Positions 21,734 to 32,233 of a DNA stretch of 57,380 bases are shown one piece after another. Both the position numbers and the translations under genes were made by a program. The stretch is from Cyanobacteria bacterium CG_2015-22_32_23 (GTDB lineage: Bacteria > Cyanobacteriota > Cyanobacteriia > Cyanobacteriales > Cyanobacteriaceae), in assembly GCA_009993045.1 (NCBI GenBank), contig JAACUG010000092.1, positions 1 to 57,380 on the forward strand, in the 5' to 3' direction. Numbering within the stretch: position 1 is the stretch's first letter; each line of letters begins with the position of its first letter. The notes under the pieces are model-generated. The model saw only the letters and a program-made list of their open reading frames with translations. It made no database searches and was not told the origin of the DNA.

Positions 21734-22738
21734 CTACAAATAAATTTTACCATCTGGCATAGTTACACCATCTAAAATAGCTTCGGATAAATTTACTCCC
21801 GATAAATCCGCATCTCGCAGACTTGCACCCGTTAAGTTTGTGTTTTTCAAAATTGCACCATTAAGACAAGCACCCCATAAATAAGCACCATGTAAGTTTG
21901 CATCGGTTAAATCCGCCCCCGTCAGATTTGCTAAATTCAAATTAGAAAAGCTCAAATCCGCTCCTCTCAAATCAGTTTCAGTTAGATTACTTTTCATGAA
22001 ATTTCCTTGAATAATCTGCGCCCCTCTCATTTGTACTTGTTGTAACTGAGCGTTATTCAAATTAGCTTTAGTTAAAATACTTCGACGTAATATCGCATTA
22101 CTTAAATTACTACCTGAAAGATTACTATTTTGTAATTTTGCACCGCTCATTTTAGCTTCTGTTAAATCTAAAGCACTAAAGTTACAACCTTGTAAATCTA
22201 AACCGTTAAGAAATGCACCTTTCAACTTAATACCTTGTAATTTTGCCCCTTGTAAGTTTGCACCGCTTAATCTAGCATGGTTTAAATTAGTCCAGTTTAA
22301 GTTTGCACCCTGTAAATTTGCCCCTCTTAAATTGATACCATCTAAATTTGCACCACAAAGATTAACATTGGGTAAATTCGCCATATATAAGCTAACCCAT
22401 GTCAAAATTGCACCGCTTAAAGTTGCACCTTCAAGATTAACTTTATGTAATTGCGCACCATGTAAATCTGCTTTCGTTAAATCCGCTTCCATTAATAAAG
22501 ATTCTTTTAACTTAACAAAACTTAAATTTGCACCATATAAAAAAGCTCCTCGTAAATCGGATTTTATCAGAAAACATCGCTCTAAATTTGACCATGCTAA
22601 ATGTGCATCCGTTAGTTTAGAATCTGATAAATTTGAGTTACTTAATTTCATGCCACTTAAGTTACTTTTACTGAGATTACTATGACGAAAATCTCTATCC
22701 CCTTGTCTATATCGTTTCAGTATATCATTGATTATCAT
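21734..22738 (-). CDS. Pentapeptide-repeat protein
   Basis: The 334-residue protein is almost wholly made of pentapeptide repeats of the A(D/N)Lxx form (for example GANLQGANLNWTNLNHARL), which fold into a right-handed quadrilateral beta-helix. The N-terminal cap IINDILKRYRQGDRDF is shared with the pentapeptide protein at 31289, including the pattern ILKxY-x-x-G-x-R. There is no signal peptide. Biochemical function of most such proteins is unknown; some mimic DNA, but nothing here points to that. Confidence 0.9.
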   Translation of the reverse strand: MIINDILKRYRQGDRDFRHSNLSKSNLSGMKLSNSNLSDSKLTDAHLAWSNLERCFLIKSDLRGAFLYGANLSFVKLKESLLMEADLTKADLHGAQLHKVNLEGATLSGAILTWVSLYMANLPNVNLCGANLDGINLRGANLQGANLNWTNLNHARLSGANLQGAKLQGIKLKGAFLNGLDLQGCNFSALDLTEAKMSGAKLQNSNLSGSNLSNAILRRSILTKANLNNAQLQQVQMRGAQIIQGNFMKSNLTETDLRGADLSFSNLNLANLTGADLTDANLHGAYLWGACLNGAILKNTNLTGASLRDADLSGVNLSEAILDGVTMPDGKIYL

Positions 22739-22929: not shown

Positions 22930-24051
22930 ATGACAGATTTAGTTTTTATTGGTGGTGGTCATAGTCATGCGATCGCCTTAAAGTTATGGGGCAAAAAACC
23001 ATTATTAGGTATAAATATAACCTTGATTAGTAATGTTAAAAATACTCCTTATTCGGGAATGTTACCAGCTTATTTAGCAGGTTATTATAGTTATCAAGAA
23101 AGCCATATTAATTTAGAAAAACTATGTCAATTTGCCAGAATAAATTTAATTATTGATGAAGTAATAAATATAGATTGTCAAAACAAAAAAATAATGTGTA
23201 AATCGGGGGAAAAAGTTAACTTTGATTTACTCTCTATTGATATTGGTAGTAATCCTAAAATTAGTAATATTGAAGGAGCAAATTTATACGGAATACCAGC
23301 GAAACCAGTTCCGTTTTTATTAGAAAAATGGCAAGAAATTATTAAAAATAGTCAAGAAAATAACTTAGAGAATTTAATTTTAACATTTATAGGAGGAGGA
23401 GCAGGAGGAGTAGAATTAGCTATTAATACCCACAAAAGATTAACTAAGATTTTATCTCCAGAAAAATTAACTATTAATTTAATACATAAAGGAAATAGAA
23501 TTTTAGGAAATCATAATGAATGGGTAAGTTATAAATTAATGGACATTCTTATAAACAAAAATATTAATATTTATCTAAATTCCACAGTTAAAACTATCAA
23601 AAAAGAAGAAGTAATTTTAACATCAGGAAAACAAATTATCTCAAACTATCATTTTTTAGTGACAGAAGCATCCGCACCTTTATGGTTAAAAAATAGCTCA
23701 ATTATGACAGATGAAAATGGTTTTATTTTAATTAAAAATACCTTACAAAGTATCAATTATGATTTTATTTTTGCCACTGGAGATATTGCTAATATGATTA
23801 ATTATCCTCACCCAAAAGCAGGAGTTTTTGCCGTAAAACAAGGATTACCTTTATATGAAAATATCTGTAATTTATTAAACCATAAATCATTAAAATGTCA
23901 TTATCCCCAAAAATATTATCTAAATCTGATTGGTATTAGTGACGAAACCGCCGTTGCTAGTTGGGGTTATTTTAGCTGGGAATCCCCATTATTATGGTAC
24001 TTTAAAAAATACTTAGACACTGCATTTATGAAACAATTTACTGAACTATAA
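22930..24051 (+). CDS. FAD/NAD(P)H oxidoreductase matching the N-terminal half of cyanobacterial SelD fusions
   Basis: A 373-residue flavoprotein with an N-terminal dinucleotide fold (FIGGGHSHAIAL), the family-typical NTPYSGMLPAYLAGYYSY, a second nucleotide fold (FIGGGAGGVELA) and the FAD-contact motif FATGDIANM. It resembles the NADH dehydrogenase-like domain that many cyanobacteria carry fused to selenide, water dikinase (SelD). Here the frame ends at KQFTEL, about where the SelD domain would begin, and no SelD sequence is visible in the 145 bases that follow. It therefore looks like a stand-alone version. Electron donor and acceptor are not known. Confidence 0.8.
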   Translation: MTDLVFIGGGHSHAIALKLWGKKPLLGINITLISNVKNTPYSGMLPAYLAGYYSYQESHINLEKLCQFARINLIIDEVINIDCQNKKIMCKSGEKVNFDLLSIDIGSNPKISNIEGANLYGIPAKPVPFLLEKWQEIIKNSQENNLENLILTFIGGGAGGVELAINTHKRLTKILSPEKLTINLIHKGNRILGNHNEWVSYKLMDILINKNINIYLNSTVKTIKKEEVILTSGKQIISNYHFLVTEASAPLWLKNSSIMTDENGFILIKNTLQSINYDFIFATGDIANMINYPHPKAGVFAVKQGLPLYENICNLLNHKSLKCHYPQKYYLNLIGISDETAVASWGYFSWESPLLWYFKKYLDTAFMKQFTEL

Positions 24052-24196: not shown

Positions 24197-27100
24197 ATGA
24201 CTCAGACTTCACCACAACAACCAAACCAAGAAAAAAATATCGACATTAAAAACAATAATTCATCGAGTATGAATGGAGTGGCGAATAACTCTCAAAAATC
24301 ATTTCCGAATAATAACGGTAAACCATCCGTAAAAAAAGATCAAGAGACAGGTGTTATTCCTTGGTGGCAAAATAAAAGTCTGAGGTTTAAAATGACTACC
24401 ACCGCCATTACTTTAGGTGTAGTACCGATTATTGTGGTAGGTACAATTATATCTATTGCCGTTAATAGTTCTTTCCGTGCCAAAATTGAAAAAAGTGAAA
24501 GAGGAGAAACAAGATTTATCTCTGACACAATGGTATCAAAACTTAATGAGACTTACTTAGATGTAAAAAGCATGGCTGAGTCTTTTCCCGAATCGGCAGA
24601 TTTTCTCAATAGAAATACCGTAAAATTAACAGAACAACTTAACGTTATCAAAAATACTTATCAGTTTTATGATAGCGTGGCATTATTTGATAGTCAAGGA
24701 AATGTCATTGCTCAAACCGAAGGAAAACCTTTAGAAAATCATTTAAACCGTAGTTATTTTCAAGAAGCCATCAAAAATAACGGTATCAGTATTAGTCAAC
24801 CTCTTATCTCTAAAGTTGATAATGTTTTTTCTATTTATGTTGTCTCCATTATTCAAAATCCCCAGACAAAAGAAAGATTAGGTTTTTTACGTTTGCGGAT
24901 ACCTGTAGCTAAATTAGGACAAGTTTTGACAGATGCTTATAAAGGGGAAGGAAAATCAGTTTATCTAACCGATGGTGAGAATAAATTATTCTTTTCCACT
25001 CAAGGAGAATTTCAAAACGGAAAATTAACCAGTGGAGAAAAAGCAAATACTGAAACCATTAAATCTGTCAACATCAATGAAGTTTTTAAAAACCTAAAAT
25101 GGGAAAAAGAAACAGAAGAAGCACAAAGTTTTATTGATTATAATCAAGTACAGAAAAAACAACAATTAATCGCTTATCAACCAGTTAAAACCGAATTAGA
25201 TAAAATTAACTTAGGTTGGACTGTACTTATATCTGAAGATGTAGATATAGCATTAGCACCCGTTAACCGCATTTTAAGTTACATTTTCTTCGGTATCGTA
25301 GTTTCAGGTGCAGTGGTAGGTTATATCGCTTATCTTTTAGCACAACAACTCATCAATCCCCTAGAAAAAACCGCTAAAACCATTAAAAAAATTAGTGAAG
25401 GAGATTTAGACGTAGAAGTAGAAGTCATTGGTAACGATGAAATTGCCGTTTTAGGTAAAAATATCAACGAAATGACAACCCAATTAAGAAGCCTTGTTAT
25501 TGAGCAACAATTATTTGCCAGTCAATCTACTTTATTAAAAAATATTACCTTAGAAATGACTAAGGCTTTTAACGTCAATCAAGTATTTGAAATCGCCGTC
25601 ACCGAAATTCGACAAGCCTTACAATCAGATCGAGTCATAGTCTATAGTTTTGATGAAACTTGGAAGGGTACAGTTATCGCCGAATCTGTCGATAGAAACT
25701 ACCCGAAAGCCCTAGGTGCCCAAATTCTTGATCCTTGTTTCGCAGGTAACTATGTCGATAAATATGTAAAAGGTAGAGTACAAGCAACCCCTGACATCTA
25801 TAAAGCAGGGTTAACCGACTGTCATTTACAACAATTAGAGCCTTTTGCCGTCAAAGCGAATTTAGTCGCACCAGTTATTGTAGAGGGTAAACTACTTGGT
25901 TTATTAATCGCCCATCAATGTTCATCTCCTCGTAACTGGCAAAGTGGAGAAATTGACTTTTTCATGCAAACTGCCACCCAAATGGGGCCAGCCTTAGAAA
26001 GAGTAATCTTGTTACAAAATCAGCAGTTAGATAGTTTCTTATCAGGAAAACTAAAAGATATAAGTTTCAAAATTGCCGAATCTTTAACTCAAGAGAAAAT
26101 TTTTGAAGTAGCCACAGAAATGGCTAGGGAAGCATTAAGATCTAGTCGAGTAATCATCTATCAGTTTGACGAAGATTGGAAAGGTACTATTATTGTTGAA
26201 TCTGTAGATCCTCAATATCCTAAAGCATTAGGAGCAAATATCAAAGATCCTTGTTTTGCTGATAAATATGTGGACAAATATAAACAAGGTAGAGTACAAG
26301 CGACTAATAACATTTATACCGCAGGATTAACTAGCTGTCATATACAACAATTAGAGCCTTTTGCCGTTAAAGCTAATTTAGTTACTCCTATTATTGTGGA
26401 AAATAATTTATTAGGATTACTTATCTCTCATCAATGTGACGCACCCCGACAATGGACAGAATCTGAATGTACTTTCTTATCTCAACTTGCCACCCAAATT
26501 GGCCCAGCCTTAGAAAGAATACAACTATTGAGCAAACAACAAGCATCGGAGTTAGAGCAAAGAAAAGCAAAAGAAACCATCCAACAACGAGCCTTAGAAT
26601 TATTGATGCAAGTTGATCCTGTTTCGAGCGGTGATTTAACTATTCGAGCCAGTGTCACAGAAGATGAAATAGGTACTATTGCTGACTCTTACAATGCGAC
26701 TATCGAAAGTTTAAGAAAAATTGTAACCCAAGTACAAGGCGGTACAAGAGCTGTAACTGAAGTTATTATTGAGCAAGAAGGTTTTGTCGATAATTTAGCT
26801 ACAGAGGTTATTCGTCAAGCGGAAGACATCAATGTCGCCCTTGAAAAGATACAAACTTTAGCCTTTAGTGCGCGTACTGTCTTAGATAATGCAGAAGAAG
26901 CAGAACAAGCAGTAAAACGAGCTAATCAAAGTGTAGAAGAAGGAGAAGTAGCCATGAATCGTACGGTGGACGGTATTCTTGCTATTCGAGAAACCGTAGC
27001 CGAAACAGCGAAAAAAGTTAAACGATTAGGAGAATCAACTCAGAAAATTTCTAAAGTAGTTAACCTCATTGGTAGTTTTGCCGATCAAACGAACCTTTTA

Positions 27101-27565
27101 GCGTTAAATGCTTCCATTGAGGCGGCTCACGCAGGAGAAGAAGGACGAGGTTTTGCGGTGGTAGCCGAAGAAGTTAGATCCCTTGCCCGTCAATCAGCCG
27201 ACGCAACGGCGGAAATTGAAAAAGTGGTAGCTGAAATTCAGGAAGAAACTAACGAGGTAGTTAAAGCGATGGAATCTGGTACAGAGCAAGTTGTAGAAGG
27301 TACAAGATTGGTAGAAGAAACCCGCGCCTCTTTGACTAATATTACCGCCGCTTCTGCTCAAATTAACCAGTTAGTTGCAGCGATCGCCACCGCCGCCGCC
27401 GAGCAGTCTCAAACCTCTGATGACATTACTGAAACTATGTCCGATGTAGCAGGAATCTCTAACGATACTTCTAACACTGTACAAAAAGTATCTCGTAGTT
27501 TCAGAAAACTATTAAAAGTATCCGAAAACTTAGAACAAAGTGTTAGTAAATTTAAAGTCAATTAA
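24197..27565 (+). CDS. Phototaxis-type chemoreceptor with two DXCF cyanobacteriochrome GAF domains (PixJ-like)
   Basis: A 1122-residue receptor: polar N-terminus, TM1 near residues 68-90, an extracytoplasmic Cache-like region, TM2 near 358-381, HAMP, GAF1 (about 450-610), GAF2 (about 625-780), a second HAMP-like unit ([19 protein letters not shown]) and a chemotaxis signalling domain with the hairpin tip around 955-1000 ([20 protein letters not shown]). GAF1 has DPCF (Cys514) and CH (Cys542); GAF2 has DPCF (Cys686) and CH (Cys714). This is the two-cysteine set that binds a linear tetrapyrrole in DXCF cyanobacteriochromes, which usually sense blue/green or violet light. No pixG/H/I/L genes are adjacent. 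Confidence 0.85.
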
Positions 27566-27575
27566 ACATCCTTAT

Positions 27576-27758
27576 AGCCTCCAATTTTGGGGAATAAAAA
27601 GGAGATTCGCCCCCAGCCCCCAATTTTGGGGAATAAAAAGGGAGATTCGCCCCCCAGCCCCCAAGTTTGGGGAGTAAAAAGGGAGATTCGCCCCCCAGCC
27701 CCCAATTTTGGGGAATAAAAAGGAGATTCGCCCCCCAGCCCCCAAGTTTGGGGGAGTC
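27576..27758. repeat. Tandem 39-41 bp repeats with hairpin cores
   Basis: Four full units and one partial, starting at 27576, 27615, 27656, 27697 and 27737. Each holds a CCCCAA...TTGGGG stem and the segment GGGAGATTCGCC. The array fills nearly the whole gap between the two chemoreceptor genes. The self-complementary cores could end or slow transcription from the first gene. GC content is far higher than in the neighbourhood. Confidence 0.92.
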
Positions 27759-27826
27759 AATTTTAAAGATCCCATTATTGAGGATTTAGGAACAAAATTA
27801 CTAATTACTAATTATCATTTATTACC

Positions 27827-30800
27827 ATGACACAAGCACCAGAAAAACCAAAACTAAACCTTTCGCAAAATTCTTATGTAGAACAACCTTCTCTTAATAT
27901 AGAGGAAGAAAAACAGAATACCCCACAACAACTTCCAACAGTTACATGGTTTTATAACCTTTCTATACGCAAAAAACAACTCGTAGTATTATTAACGGCT
28001 CAAACTATCTCCATTGTTGCATTATTAGCAGTAGGGGTAAATCAGGTTATTCAAGGCGGTAGGGAGCAACTTATTAACCAATCCGCTTCAGAATTAGAAG
28101 CCACAAAAACTAACTACAGCATCAAAGTTAATCAGATGGGGTTCGGTTTTCGTGGTCAATCTGATAATATTGCCATCATTAACGCTGCCTTAACTAAATT
28201 TAATGGTGGTACTTTAACACCTCAACAACGAGGCATTGTTAGACAAATTCTGCAAAACGAAATTAAAGCCCGTGATATTGAATATTCTACTTTAGTGGGT
28301 AGAGATAAAAAAATTATTGTTAATAGTAATCGAGATCGCACAGGAGAATTTTTTGATCCTCAAGGTTTAGTATCTGAAGTGATTAATAATCCTGAACAAA
28401 TAAAAATCACAGAAATCTTGCCATGGGATGATTTAAAACGAGAATCACCGCCGATTTTACCGAAATTACCTAAAGGACAACCTGTCCTCATTCGTTATAC
28501 TTTTACTCCCGTATTTAATCCTGATACCCAAGAAGTGATCGGGGTTTTAGTTTCTGGAGATGTAGTCAATCAAAAATATACCATCGTTGAACAAACTGCT
28601 AAAGAATTTGGTGGGGGTTATACCGCTATTTATAAAGTGTTAGGAGATAAATTTATTGTCGCTTCTTCTTTACACGAAACTGACGACGCTACTAACGAAG
28701 CCTTAACCGATGAAAGTCTTTTAAAACAAGCAGTTAAAAATTCAGGGAAAATTGTTTCAACTCGAGCTAAAGTTCATGATGCCATTTATACCCTGACGGC
28801 TCAAACTATTAATAACTTTAACAATGAACCCATCGCTATTCTAGTGCGCGGTACATCAGAGGCAAAACTCAATGAAATTATCTCTCGTAGTTTAACTGCT
28901 CAAGGACAAACCGCTGTTATAGTATTGATTGTCAATATATTTTTAATTTTAGTTTTAGGGAAAGTCATTGCGACTCCCATTGAATCTTTACAAATTACCG
29001 CAGAAAAATTTGCCCAAGGAAATTATCGTCTTCGTTCTAATATTAGAGGAAAAGATGAAATTGGTAAATTAGCTGATACTTTTAACTATTTAGCCGAAAA
29101 TATTGAACAAACCGAATCCATTTTAACCTTAGATTCAACTAAAATCAGTCTTTTTCAAGATATTACAGGTACAACTACTCTTGATGAGAATGACGTTAAT
29201 AAAGTTTTTGATCGAGCATTACCCAAAGCTAAAGAAATTTTAGAAGTTGATCGCCTTGTGATTTACCGTTTTAAACCAGACTGGAGTGGTTATATTAGCA
29301 ACGAAGCAGGAGATTTAGATTTACCTAGTGCTTTGAATGAAAATATCAACGATCCCTGTATTCCTTCAGAATTAAGACAGGCTTATATTAACGGGCGAGT
29401 TGTACCCACAGAAAACGTTTATACCGCAGGATTTGCTCCCGAACATGAAGACTTAATGCACCGTTTGAAAATTAAATCCAATTTAGTCGTCCCTATTGTA
29501 ACTCAAGGACAATTATTTGCATTATTAATCGCCCATCATTGCCGTCGCCATCATCAATGGGAAGAAAAAGAAATTGCCTTTTTAGGTCAAATTGCCTTAC
29601 GTTTTGGGGTAATTTTAGATAGGGTAAATATCCTTAAAGAGCAAATGTCAGCGGCCACAAGGGCTGAACAACTCAAAGAAATTACCCTTTCCCTAGCCGC
29701 TAGTTTAAATCGACAACAAGTATTAGATTCCGCCGTGACAGAAATTCGTTCCGCTTTAAAATGCGATCGCACTATTGTCTATGAGTTTGATGAAAATTGG
29801 AAAGGTACTATTATTGCTGAATCTGTAGCGTTAAATTGTCCTAAAGCTATCGGTGCAACCATTGCAGATCCTTGTTTTGCTGATAGATATGTAGAAAAAT
29901 ATACACAAGGTAGAGTTCAAGCTACTCCCGATATTTATAAAGCTGGTTTAACACCATGTCATCTTAAACAATTAGAACCTTTTGCCGTTAGAGCGAATTT
30001 AGTAGCACCAATTTTGGTTAACCGTAAACTTATCGGCTTGTTAATCTGTCATCAATGTTATGATGTGCGTAACTGGGATGCCAAAGAAATTGAATTATTT
30101 AGTCAATTATCTACCCAAGTCGGTTTAAGTATTGAAAGGGTAAAACTTCTTGAGCTACAACTAAACTCCGAACAAGTGCAACGAGAAGGAAAAGAATTAC
30201 TCCAAAGACGAGCATTAGAACTATTGATGCAAGTTGATCCAGTATCTAGTGGTGATTTAACCATTCGTGCTACGGTAACAGAAGATGAAATTGGTACTAT
30301 TGCTGACTCTTATAATGCCACCATTGAAAGTTTAAGAAAAATCGTATCTCAAGTACAAATCGCCGCTTTAGAAGTAGCTCAAACCACCATTACTAACGAA
30401 AATGATGTCAAAGTTTTACAAACAGAAATTCAAGAACAAGTAACTAATATTTCTGAAGCAATTTTAACCGTTAAGCAGATGAGTCGTTCTAGTAACCTTG
30501 TAGCCGAAAATGCAGAATTAGCAGAAGAAGCCCTCCAAAAAGCTCAAGAAAGCGTGGAAACAGGCGACTCAGCCATGAATCGTACAGTAAAATCTATCAT
30601 GGAAATTCGTTCTACCGTACAACAAGCCTCTGGGCAAGTTAAAAAGTTAGGAGAAACGACTCAAAATATTTCCACCGTAGTGGGACTTATCAGCAGATTT
30701 GCCGCTCAAACTCACCTTTTAGCGTTAAAAGCCTCCATTGAAGCAGCACGAGCAGGAGAACAAGGTACTGGTTTTGCGGTAATTGCAGAAGAGGTAAGGG

Positions 30801-31186
30801 CTTTAGCAACCCAATCCGCTCAAGCAACTGGTGACATTGAAAAACTGGTTAATGAAATTTTGAACGAAACTAAAGTTGTTGTCATAGCAATGGAAGAAGG
30901 TAGCGAACAAGTAATTGAGGGTAGTAAATTAGTGGAAGAAACTCGTCAAAGTTTAAACCAAATTGCGGCAGCTACTACTCAAATTAATGAATTAGTAGAA
31001 GCCATTGCTGCTGCTGCTTTTGAGCAATCAGAAAATTCTCAAGAAGTAACGGTTAAAATGGCAGATGTAGCTAAAATTGCTGAAAAAACTACCGCCTCCG
31101 TAGCACAATTATCTGATTCTTTTGTCGAATTACAACAAGTAGCTCGTACTTTAGAATCTAACGTTGCTCAGTTTAAAGTAAGTTAA
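27827..31186 (+). CDS. Chemoreceptor with one cyanobacteriochrome-type GAF and one non-chromophore GAF (PixJ-like paralogue)
   Basis: An 1119-residue paralogue of the preceding gene. TM1 is near residues 46-66, followed by an extracytoplasmic sensor region, TM2 near 360-382, HAMP, GAF1, GAF2, a HAMP-like unit nearly identical to that of its neighbour, and a chemotaxis signalling domain. GAF1 reads DPCI (Cys511), and the chromophore Cys position is Glu539-His540, so it should not bind bilin. GAF2 has DPCF (Cys683) and Cys711-His712, the complete DXCF set. The signalling tip is altered: [10 protein letters not shown] and GEQGTGFAV, where QTNLLALNA and GRGFAV are usual. It probably arose by duplication with its neighbour. 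Confidence 0.84.
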
Positions 31187-31288: not shown

Positions 31289-32233
31289 TTATCTATTTCT
31301 GAAGCCGCTTTTAATTTCATATCCTATAACTTTCTGAGGTTCGAGTGAACTCTCAAAATCTTTAAAAATCAACGAACAAAATTGTATATATTTTCTAATC
31401 CATTCTTGATAAAATTTCAACTGAGAATAATTAATTGTTTTTGTTGAATTTTCTTCAACAGTAATTAATCCTTGACTATTAATTTTAAATACATTAAGAT
31501 AATGATTATTAAAAGGACGAAAAAGTTCAATGTACTTCGTAGAAATAGTATTACCTAAATAATGACTAGCAATTTTCACGACATAATTGAAACTGTCTAA
31601 AATTTCCATTATTGTTATCTCTAAACTTTTTTTCATTCCCCATTCTTCAGGGTGAAAATTAAGATCAAATAAAGTCTGAATATCATACTCAGCATCTTTG
31701 AAAGACGTTTTGTTTAATGTAGTTGCCACAAGAGATGCCGAGCATAAAGTTGCTTCATCTAAAATAGTTTCCGTTAAATTACTCCTTGTTAAACATGCAT
31801 TAGTTAAATTAGCTTTTTTCAAATTAGCATAACTTAAATCGCTTTGATTAAAAGAAGTTCCTATTAAATTAGCATTGCTTAAATTAGCCTTGATTAAATT
31901 TGTATTAGTTAAATGTCCGTGAGAAAGATTACTTTTTTTAAAATTAGCTTTTTTACAGTTAGAATTACTAAGATTTGCACTAGTTAAATCTGCTAAATCA
32001 AAGATTACCCCAGTTAAATTACATCCTTTTAAATGAGCTCCCTTTAGTTTACATTTGCTCAAATTACTTTCTCTTAAATCTACATTTATCATAGTGACAC
32101 AACTTAAATCAGATCCTGATAAATCTAAATTTGTGAGGATTGCGCCTTTTAGATTAACATGAGCTAAATTAGCATGTAAAAAACTTCTTTGCCCTGAAGT
32201 ATATTCTTTTAATATATTAAGACTTTTTTTCAT
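31289..32233 (-). CDS. Pentapeptide-repeat protein with a C-terminal cyanobacterial domain
   Basis: Residues 1-18 form the same cap as in the other pentapeptide protein (ILKEYTSGQRSF). About 30 pentapeptides follow to residue 175. A linker (DIQTLFDLNFHPEEWG) leads to a domain of about 110 residues with the pattern VKIASHYLGN, SRP-like LFRPFNN and EWIRKYIQFCSLIFKDF. I recognise this last part as a cyanobacterial domain of unknown function that elsewhere occurs alone. No signal peptide. The function is unknown; the domain may be the effector part and the beta-helix a scaffold. Confidence 0.82.
   Translation of the reverse strand: MKKSLNILKEYTSGQRSFLHANLAHVNLKGAILTNLDLSGSDLSCVTMINVDLRESNLSKCKLKGAHLKGCNLTGVIFDLADLTSANLSNSNCKKANFKKSNLSHGHLTNTNLIKANLSNANLIGTSFNQSDLSYANLKKANLTNACLTRSNLTETILDEATLCSASLVATTLNKTSFKDAEYDIQTLFDLNFHPEEWGMKKSLEITIMEILDSFNYVVKIASHYLGNTISTKYIELFRPFNNHYLNVFKINSQGLITVEENSTKTINYSQLKFYQEWIRKYIQFCSLIFKDFESSLEPQKVIGYEIKSGFRNR

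Follow-up and report, generated by a model that had tools for sequence, protein, structure and literature searches.

A tandem pair of PixJ-like receptors with a putative DXCIP-type GAF domain and a dispersed pix operon in a Geminocystis-type cyanobacterium

Among the systems described so far, the closest to the locus presented here is the tax1 operon of Synechocystis, whose genes are named pixG-H-I-J1-J2-L (sll0038-sll0043; PMC7076178). Only the second GAF domain of the PixJ1 receptor of this organism binds PCB, and in the model put forward for the pathway PixG and PixH signal to the pili (PMC5812497). A second point of reference is the DXCIP lineage of cyanobacteriochrome GAF domains, which are without the canonical Cys, attach their bilin solely through the Cys of the DXCIP motif, and show a green-absorbing dark state and a slightly blue-shifted photoproduct (PMC5578081, PMC6628166).

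The receptor pair described here lies in a window (the whole stretch of DNA that was analysed, 57,380 nucleotides) that corresponds to contig C122 of a genome of 3.27 Mb (142 contigs, 99.8% complete, 32% G+C). Among named relatives, Geminocystis sp. GBBB08 comes closest, with 86% identity over the GAF, and the host of the window is therefore a Geminocystis-type cyanobacterium (family Geminocystaceae). The two receptors are encoded by adjacent open reading frames and share the layout TM–Cache–TM–HAMP–GAF–GAF–HAMP–MCP; in both, Pfam recognises HAMP, a pair of GAF domains and an MCP signalling domain, with a dCache_1 domain in addition in receptor 1, and by hydropathy the periplasmic part of each is bracketed by two transmembrane stretches. 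The features of the pair, in the coordinates of the window, are the following:

24197..27565, + strand: receptor 1 (R1, pixJ1-like), 1122 aa (open reading frame, Pfam)
24386..24475, + strand: first transmembrane stretch of R1, aa 64-93 (hydropathy)
24509..25222, + strand: periplasmic dCache_1 domain of R1 (PF02743), fast evolving (Pfam, 48.3 bits against a cut-off of 45)
25247..25339, + strand: second transmembrane stretch of R1, aa 351-381 (hydropathy)
25334..25489, + strand: HAMP domain of R1 (Pfam)
25559..26026, + strand: GAF1 of R1, DXCF type, with DPCF at 512-515 (second Cys C514) and C542-H543
26075..26542, + strand: GAF2 of R1, DXCF type, with DPCF at 684-687 and C714-H715
26993..27457, + strand: MCP signalling domain of R1 (Pfam)
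27576..27753, + strand: 41-bp tandem array, 4.4 copies, in the R1-R2 spacer
27827..31186, + strand: receptor 2 (R2, pixJ2-like), 1119 aa (open reading frame, Pfam)
27983..28039, + strand: first transmembrane stretch of R2, aa 53-71 (hydropathy)
28040..28912, + strand: periplasmic sensor of R2, double-Cache-like (predicted structure)
28913..28969, + strand: second transmembrane stretch of R2, aa 363-381 (hydropathy)
28955..29110, + strand: HAMP domain of R2 (Pfam)
29180..29647, + strand: GAF1 of R2, putative DXCIP type, with DPCIP (C511) and E539-H540, without the canonical Cys
29696..30163, + strand: GAF2 of R2, DXCF type, with DPCF at 681-684 and C711-H712
30536..31078, + strand: MCP signalling domain of R2 (Pfam)

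With this architecture both proteins pass as membrane-anchored MCPs with bilin GAF domains, the bilin type being judged from motif and clade, and R1 adjoins R2 in all 13 complete genomes of the family. The second HAMP region is 96% identical between R1 and R2 at the amino acid level over 50 residues; recent gene conversion of this region was considered and is unsupported, because the identity of the R1 and R2 DNA within a genome does not exceed that between orthologues.

Three of the four GAF domains, namely GAF1 and GAF2 of R1 and GAF2 of R2, carry the DXCF motif with its second Cys together with the canonical Cys-His, the DPCF codons lying at 25730-25741, 26246-26257 and 29867-29878, respectively. 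The nearest solved structure is the GAF domain of TePixJ (E=3e-46 for R2 GAF2), and the pattern of motifs is the same throughout the 13 complete family genomes, except that two of them read CY instead of CH in R2 GAF2. Since the motifs fall at the TePixJ positions within full-length GAF matches and have been kept across the family, they are not chance occurrences. Mean pairwise identity within the family amounts to 0.79 for R1 GAF1, 0.82 for R1 GAF2 and 0.67 for R2 GAF2. In two Prochloraceae metagenome-assembled genomes (L055, L070) R2 GAF2 reads DPGF/FH, with both Cys residues lost. A tree of 154 GAF domains, into which the red/green references entered as PDB sequences, places TePixJ among the three DXCF GAFs and AnPixJg2, NpR6012g4 and Slr1393g3 outside them, its inner forks being weak.

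From motif and tree position, R1 would likely hold two blue/green DXCF sites, although GAF1, intact as it looks, need not be chromophorylated, because Synechocystis PixJ1 binds PCB by GAF2 only. It had been proposed, in the preliminary description of this DNA, that two bilin-type GAF domains in one chain could make a two-colour sensor. Applied to R1, this would mean that each of its two DXCF sites has a colour of its own and that the chain compares the two; both sites are complete, each is separately conserved in the 13 genomes, and DXCF photoproducts are known to span teal to orange (PMC6628166). The two domains are 65% identical, however, and share the same motif residues, so that different colours are not indicated and it is simpler to assume that their blue/green cycles are alike; no known colour-tuning difference was identified between them, sequence being an unreliable guide to tuning. 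We consider two-colour sensing by R1 unlikely. The proposal appears better suited to R2, which by its motifs combines a DXCIP with a DXCF site.

The first GAF domain of R2 is the one that departs from this pattern. Its motif reads DPCI followed by P (29351-29362), and Glu takes the canonical Cys position in front of the His. All 13 complete genomes of the family have both DPCIP and Glu-His, and the domain is about as conserved as the GAFs of R1 and more so than R2 GAF2, with 87 of 157 columns invariant and a mean pairwise identity of 0.81. The GAF tree unites 38 DXCI-type GAF1 domains, drawn from many cyanobacteria, in a single clade with a support of 100, and most of them retain D, C, I and H. 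The motif has been lost in just four of them (L053, L055, L063 and L077), with D, C or H gone and long branches. These two observations, the clade and the 13 family genomes, are not circular, unlike the invariant D, C and I of alignment A3, because the DXCI rows of that alignment were picked by motif. The AlphaFold model of the domain (pLDDT 91) finds its best matches among cyanobacteriochrome and phytochrome GAFs, TePixJ being the top match in Foldseek, with VIA-align Z values of 22-23. The original work on the lineage is reportedly that of Fushimi et al. in 2016, said to describe a phototaxis protein with a DXCIP GAF1 and a DXCF GAF2, which is the arrangement of R2; the same combination is reported for cce_4193 of a Cyanothece/Crocosphaera strain.

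Judged by motif and clade, in a tree whose characterised references included TePixJ, AnPixJg2, NpR6012g4 and Slr1393g3 but no DXCIP sequence, R2 GAF1 is a conserved, putative member of the known DXCIP lineage and gives no sign of being vestigial. The opposite reading takes it for a relic that carries no chromophore and has been kept only for a structural role between HAMP and GAF2, in spacing or in dimerisation. The replacement of the canonical Cys by Glu fits such a reading, and so do the four degenerate clade members, in which this clade position can be seen to decay, and the spacing between tandem GAF domains, which is 172 residues in 93 of the 118 junctions measured, as a spacer would need, and which is consistent with a fixed helical register. 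Against it stand the invariance of DPCIP and Glu-His in the family, the conservation of the domain and the retention of the motif by most of the clade, together with the fact that known DXCIP GAFs bind bilin without the canonical Cys (PMC5578081). A vestigial GAF1 thus seems decidedly unlikely, and because the DXCIP site is conserved across the whole family it is argued to be in use. As a member of the DXCIP lineage, R2 GAF1 would likely give its receptor a green-absorbing site next to the blue/green DXCF site of GAF2.

Returning to the preliminary description, which had seen in this DNA tandem PixJ-like receptors with three complete DXCF-type sites and one vestigial GAF domain, the receptors are confirmed by their open reading frames, their Pfam domains and their matches to TePixJ, and the three sites by their DPCF and Cys-His residues. 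The DPCI and Glu-His that it had read in R2 GAF1 are also there, as DPCI(P)/EH; the word vestigial finds no support in the case of a motif present in every complete family genome and a well-supported clade. A phylogeny against characterised cyanobacteriochromes, which it had recommended, agrees with these assignments: the DXCF GAFs group with TePixJ, apart from the red/green GAFs, and R2 GAF1 falls in the DXCI clade.

In Geminocystaceae R1 GAF1 reads DPCF/CH in 13 of 13 genomes and groups with the DXCF GAFs; several relatives have a receptor 1 whose GAF1 belongs to the DXCI class. AU tests were run on groups named after the tree had been seen. With the motif columns left out, a position of R1 GAF1 within the DXCI clade (p=0.00096) and a sister relationship to the R2 GAF1 of the family (p=0.012) were rejected; a looser arrangement, a branch with the DXCI clade and R1 GAF1 together on one side, was not (p=0.525). 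The simplest reading, and a likely one, is that a DXCF copy replaced an older GAF1 in R1.

The periplasmic domains differ in pace. The Cache domain of R1 evolves fast (mean family identity 0.31) and the sensor of R2 more slowly (0.60). No Pfam Cache model reaches its cut-off in R2, where the sole match is sCache_3_3 with 21.2 bits against 28.8. The AlphaFold model of this sensor (pLDDT 88.7) is matched in Foldseek by dCache-type sensors (TlpA, DctB, Tlp3, TlpQ), and the predicted fold is dCache-like; we call it Cache-like, without assigning it to a Cache family. Chemical input through these Cache-type domains is possible.

The spacer between the receptors is filled by the 41-bp array, which consists of G+C-rich stem-loop units (AGCCCCCAATTTTGGGGAATAAAAAGGGAGATTCGCCCCCC) and is absent from the R1-R2 spacers of 12 relatives. 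Promoter-like sites show no excess over chance; terminator-like sites are in excess, and the array contributes most of them. An extra open reading frame lies between the receptors in two genomes of the same genus (L160, 8875-9555; L157, 5431-5922), and the spacer is therefore a place of insertions.

In the window, the neighbours of the pair are an oxidoreductase and two pentapeptide-repeat-like open reading frames, and the claim that pix operon partners are missing from its vicinity is correct. The oxidoreductase is a stand-alone protein with a TIGR03169 domain, which owes its name to a fusion with SelD; it is encoded directly upstream of the pair (22930-24051), as also in two genomes of the same genus. 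The pentapeptide-repeat-like frames, on the minus strand (21734-22738 and 31289-32233), flank the block formed by the receptors and the oxidoreductase.

In a number of relatives the genes for a PatA-type regulator, CheY, CheW, receptor 1, receptor 2 and CheA follow each other in one run (Hydrococcus L052, L053, L055, L056, Moorena L061/L092/L100, L070, Chlorogloea L072 and Aliterella L087). L158 and L159, two genomes from the same genus as the window, have a CheA gene directly after receptor 2 on the same strand, and its product is 67 and 64% identical, respectively, to the CheA encoded on contig C19 of the window's genome. The search for pixG/H/I/L homologues elsewhere in the genome, which had been suggested earlier, did find counterparts: a pixG/H/I trio on contig C126 and pixL (CheA) on contig C19. 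The margin over the next paralogue is about twofold for the CheA on C19, three- to fourfold for the PatA-type protein and about threefold for CheW, both on C126; for the CheY on C126 it is slim (175 against 137 bits). The set thus lies in three unlinked places, with the pair on C122. One pixL and one high-identity pixG, in addition to the receptor pair, are present in each of the 13 complete family genomes, and in 11 of these pixL does not adjoin the pair. In a single-contig genome (G008) the pair is found at 3.53 Mb, pixG at 3.18 Mb and pixL at 3.14 Mb, so that the splitting of the operon is not an effect of assembly.

The PixL-type CheA of C19 (L037, 5609-12442, in G000) is a protein of 2277 aa with four Hpt stretches. 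Long PixL proteins (about 1870-2460 aa) are usual in the family, and the operon-borne relatives are shorter, at 1122-1415 aa, and contain one or two Hpt stretches. Another chemosensory operon, on C94 of G000, encodes an MCP (L034, 3377-5629) with a phosphonate-binding-type periplasmic domain; this MCP adjoins a dCache MCP.

The absence of any phototaxis machinery, which the preliminary description had named as a finding that would speak against it, does not apply to this genome. Besides the Che proteins, it encodes one ferredoxin-dependent bilin reductase and ATPases of the type IV pilus/type II secretion kind, whose T2SSE matches alone cannot separate pili from secretion. A BLUF protein (PixD type) was not found at threshold in the search. 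Further CheA proteins, at least three in number (C81, C94 and C140), are encoded in the genome as well, and because of these and of the unlinked pixGHI and pixL genes cross-talk is possible. It is nevertheless highly unlikely that the pair has left the Pix pathway and signals to a different Che system (C66/C81, C94 or C125/C140), or that it consists mainly of chemoreceptors acting through Cache: pixGHI, pixL and the pair do lie apart in this genome, pixL is away from the pair in most of the family and both receptors have Cache-type periplasmic domains, but pixG, pixJ1J2 and pixL are retained as a set in 13 of 13 complete genomes, pixL still adjoins the pair in two genomes of the same genus, and the GAF domains are far more conserved than the Cache domain of R1.

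Taken together, these observations point to the pair being the pixJ1–pixJ2 of a Pix (tax1-type) pathway, the operon of which has come to be split in Geminocystaceae, and to type IV pilus phototaxis as its likely function. The PixI of C126 and the PixL of C19 are its presumed partners, which gives a presumptive answer to the question, left open in the preliminary description, of the CheA/CheW-like proteins used. From them we infer a course of signalling in which bilin binding, colours, the direction of the signal and physical partnership with these Che proteins are all predicted. PCB produced with the bilin reductase of the genome would be taken up by the GAF domains. In the three DXCF domains it would be attached by the canonical Cys and isomerised to PVB, and a blue-/green-absorbing cycle would arise by reversible ligation of the DXCF Cys; in R2 GAF1 the bilin would be held by the DXCIP Cys only and absorb green in the dark state. 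Photoisomerisation would then act through the GAF–GAF helix and HAMP on the MCP domain, whose output would change the activity of PixL (CheA, C19) by way of PixI (CheW, C126), and PixL would phosphorylate PixG and PixH (C126), with the steering of type IV pili as the outcome. The identity of the pair and this mechanism, considered jointly, are in our judgement quite probable.

A further and more speculative proposal, which, taken as a whole, we regard as doubtful, is that the two receptors have divided their labour in this family. PixJ1 would have swapped an ancestral DXCIP GAF1 for a second DXCF GAF and would read the blue/green ratio twice, PixJ2 would read green intensity as well as colour with its DXCIP and DXCF sites, and both would feed one multi-Hpt PixL, making up a four-site colour-plus-intensity phototaxis sensor with periplasmic ligand domains.

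The pair is ordinary in kind: it adds one more member to the PixJ family, having a GAF domain of known lineage in place of a supposed relic and a dispersed pix operon. What it offers is the correction of a natural mistake, given that a GAF domain without the canonical Cys is not dead for that reason. Nor does the lack of neighbours have to imply a lack of partners: the genes of the Pix operon were retained in this family although the operon came apart, and two genomes still show an intermediate state, pixJ1-J2-L. The pair also provides a small natural system for testing how a single receptor combines bilin sites of two different kinds.

Compared with known systems, the pair resembles PixJ1/PixJ2 of Synechocystis (sll0041/sll0042) in being formed by tandem MCP receptors, of which PixJ1 has two GAF domains and two transmembrane stretches (PMC7076178, PMC5812497). 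The partners are of the same kinds as in tax1, and in relatives of the window the pair stands in the same operon order, whereas here the operon is found in three places. Compared by description, R1 has two complete DXCF sites, in contrast to PixJ1 with its single PCB-binding GAF2, and both receptors here carry Cache-type domains, unlike PixJ1/PixJ2. TePixJ of Thermosynechococcus (PDB 3vv4/4fof) shares DPCF and Cys-His with the DXCF domains, is 46% identical to R1 GAF2, and is both the best solved relative of R2 GAF2 and the structure that Foldseek ranks first for the model of R2 GAF1; it differs in the single GAF domain of its solved chain, and R2 GAF1 differs from it in having no canonical Cys and Ile for Phe in the motif. 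It is the DXCIP cyanobacteriochromes that R2 GAF1 resembles in these respects, with D-x-C-I-P, no canonical Cys and a DXCF GAF domain following in the same receptor.
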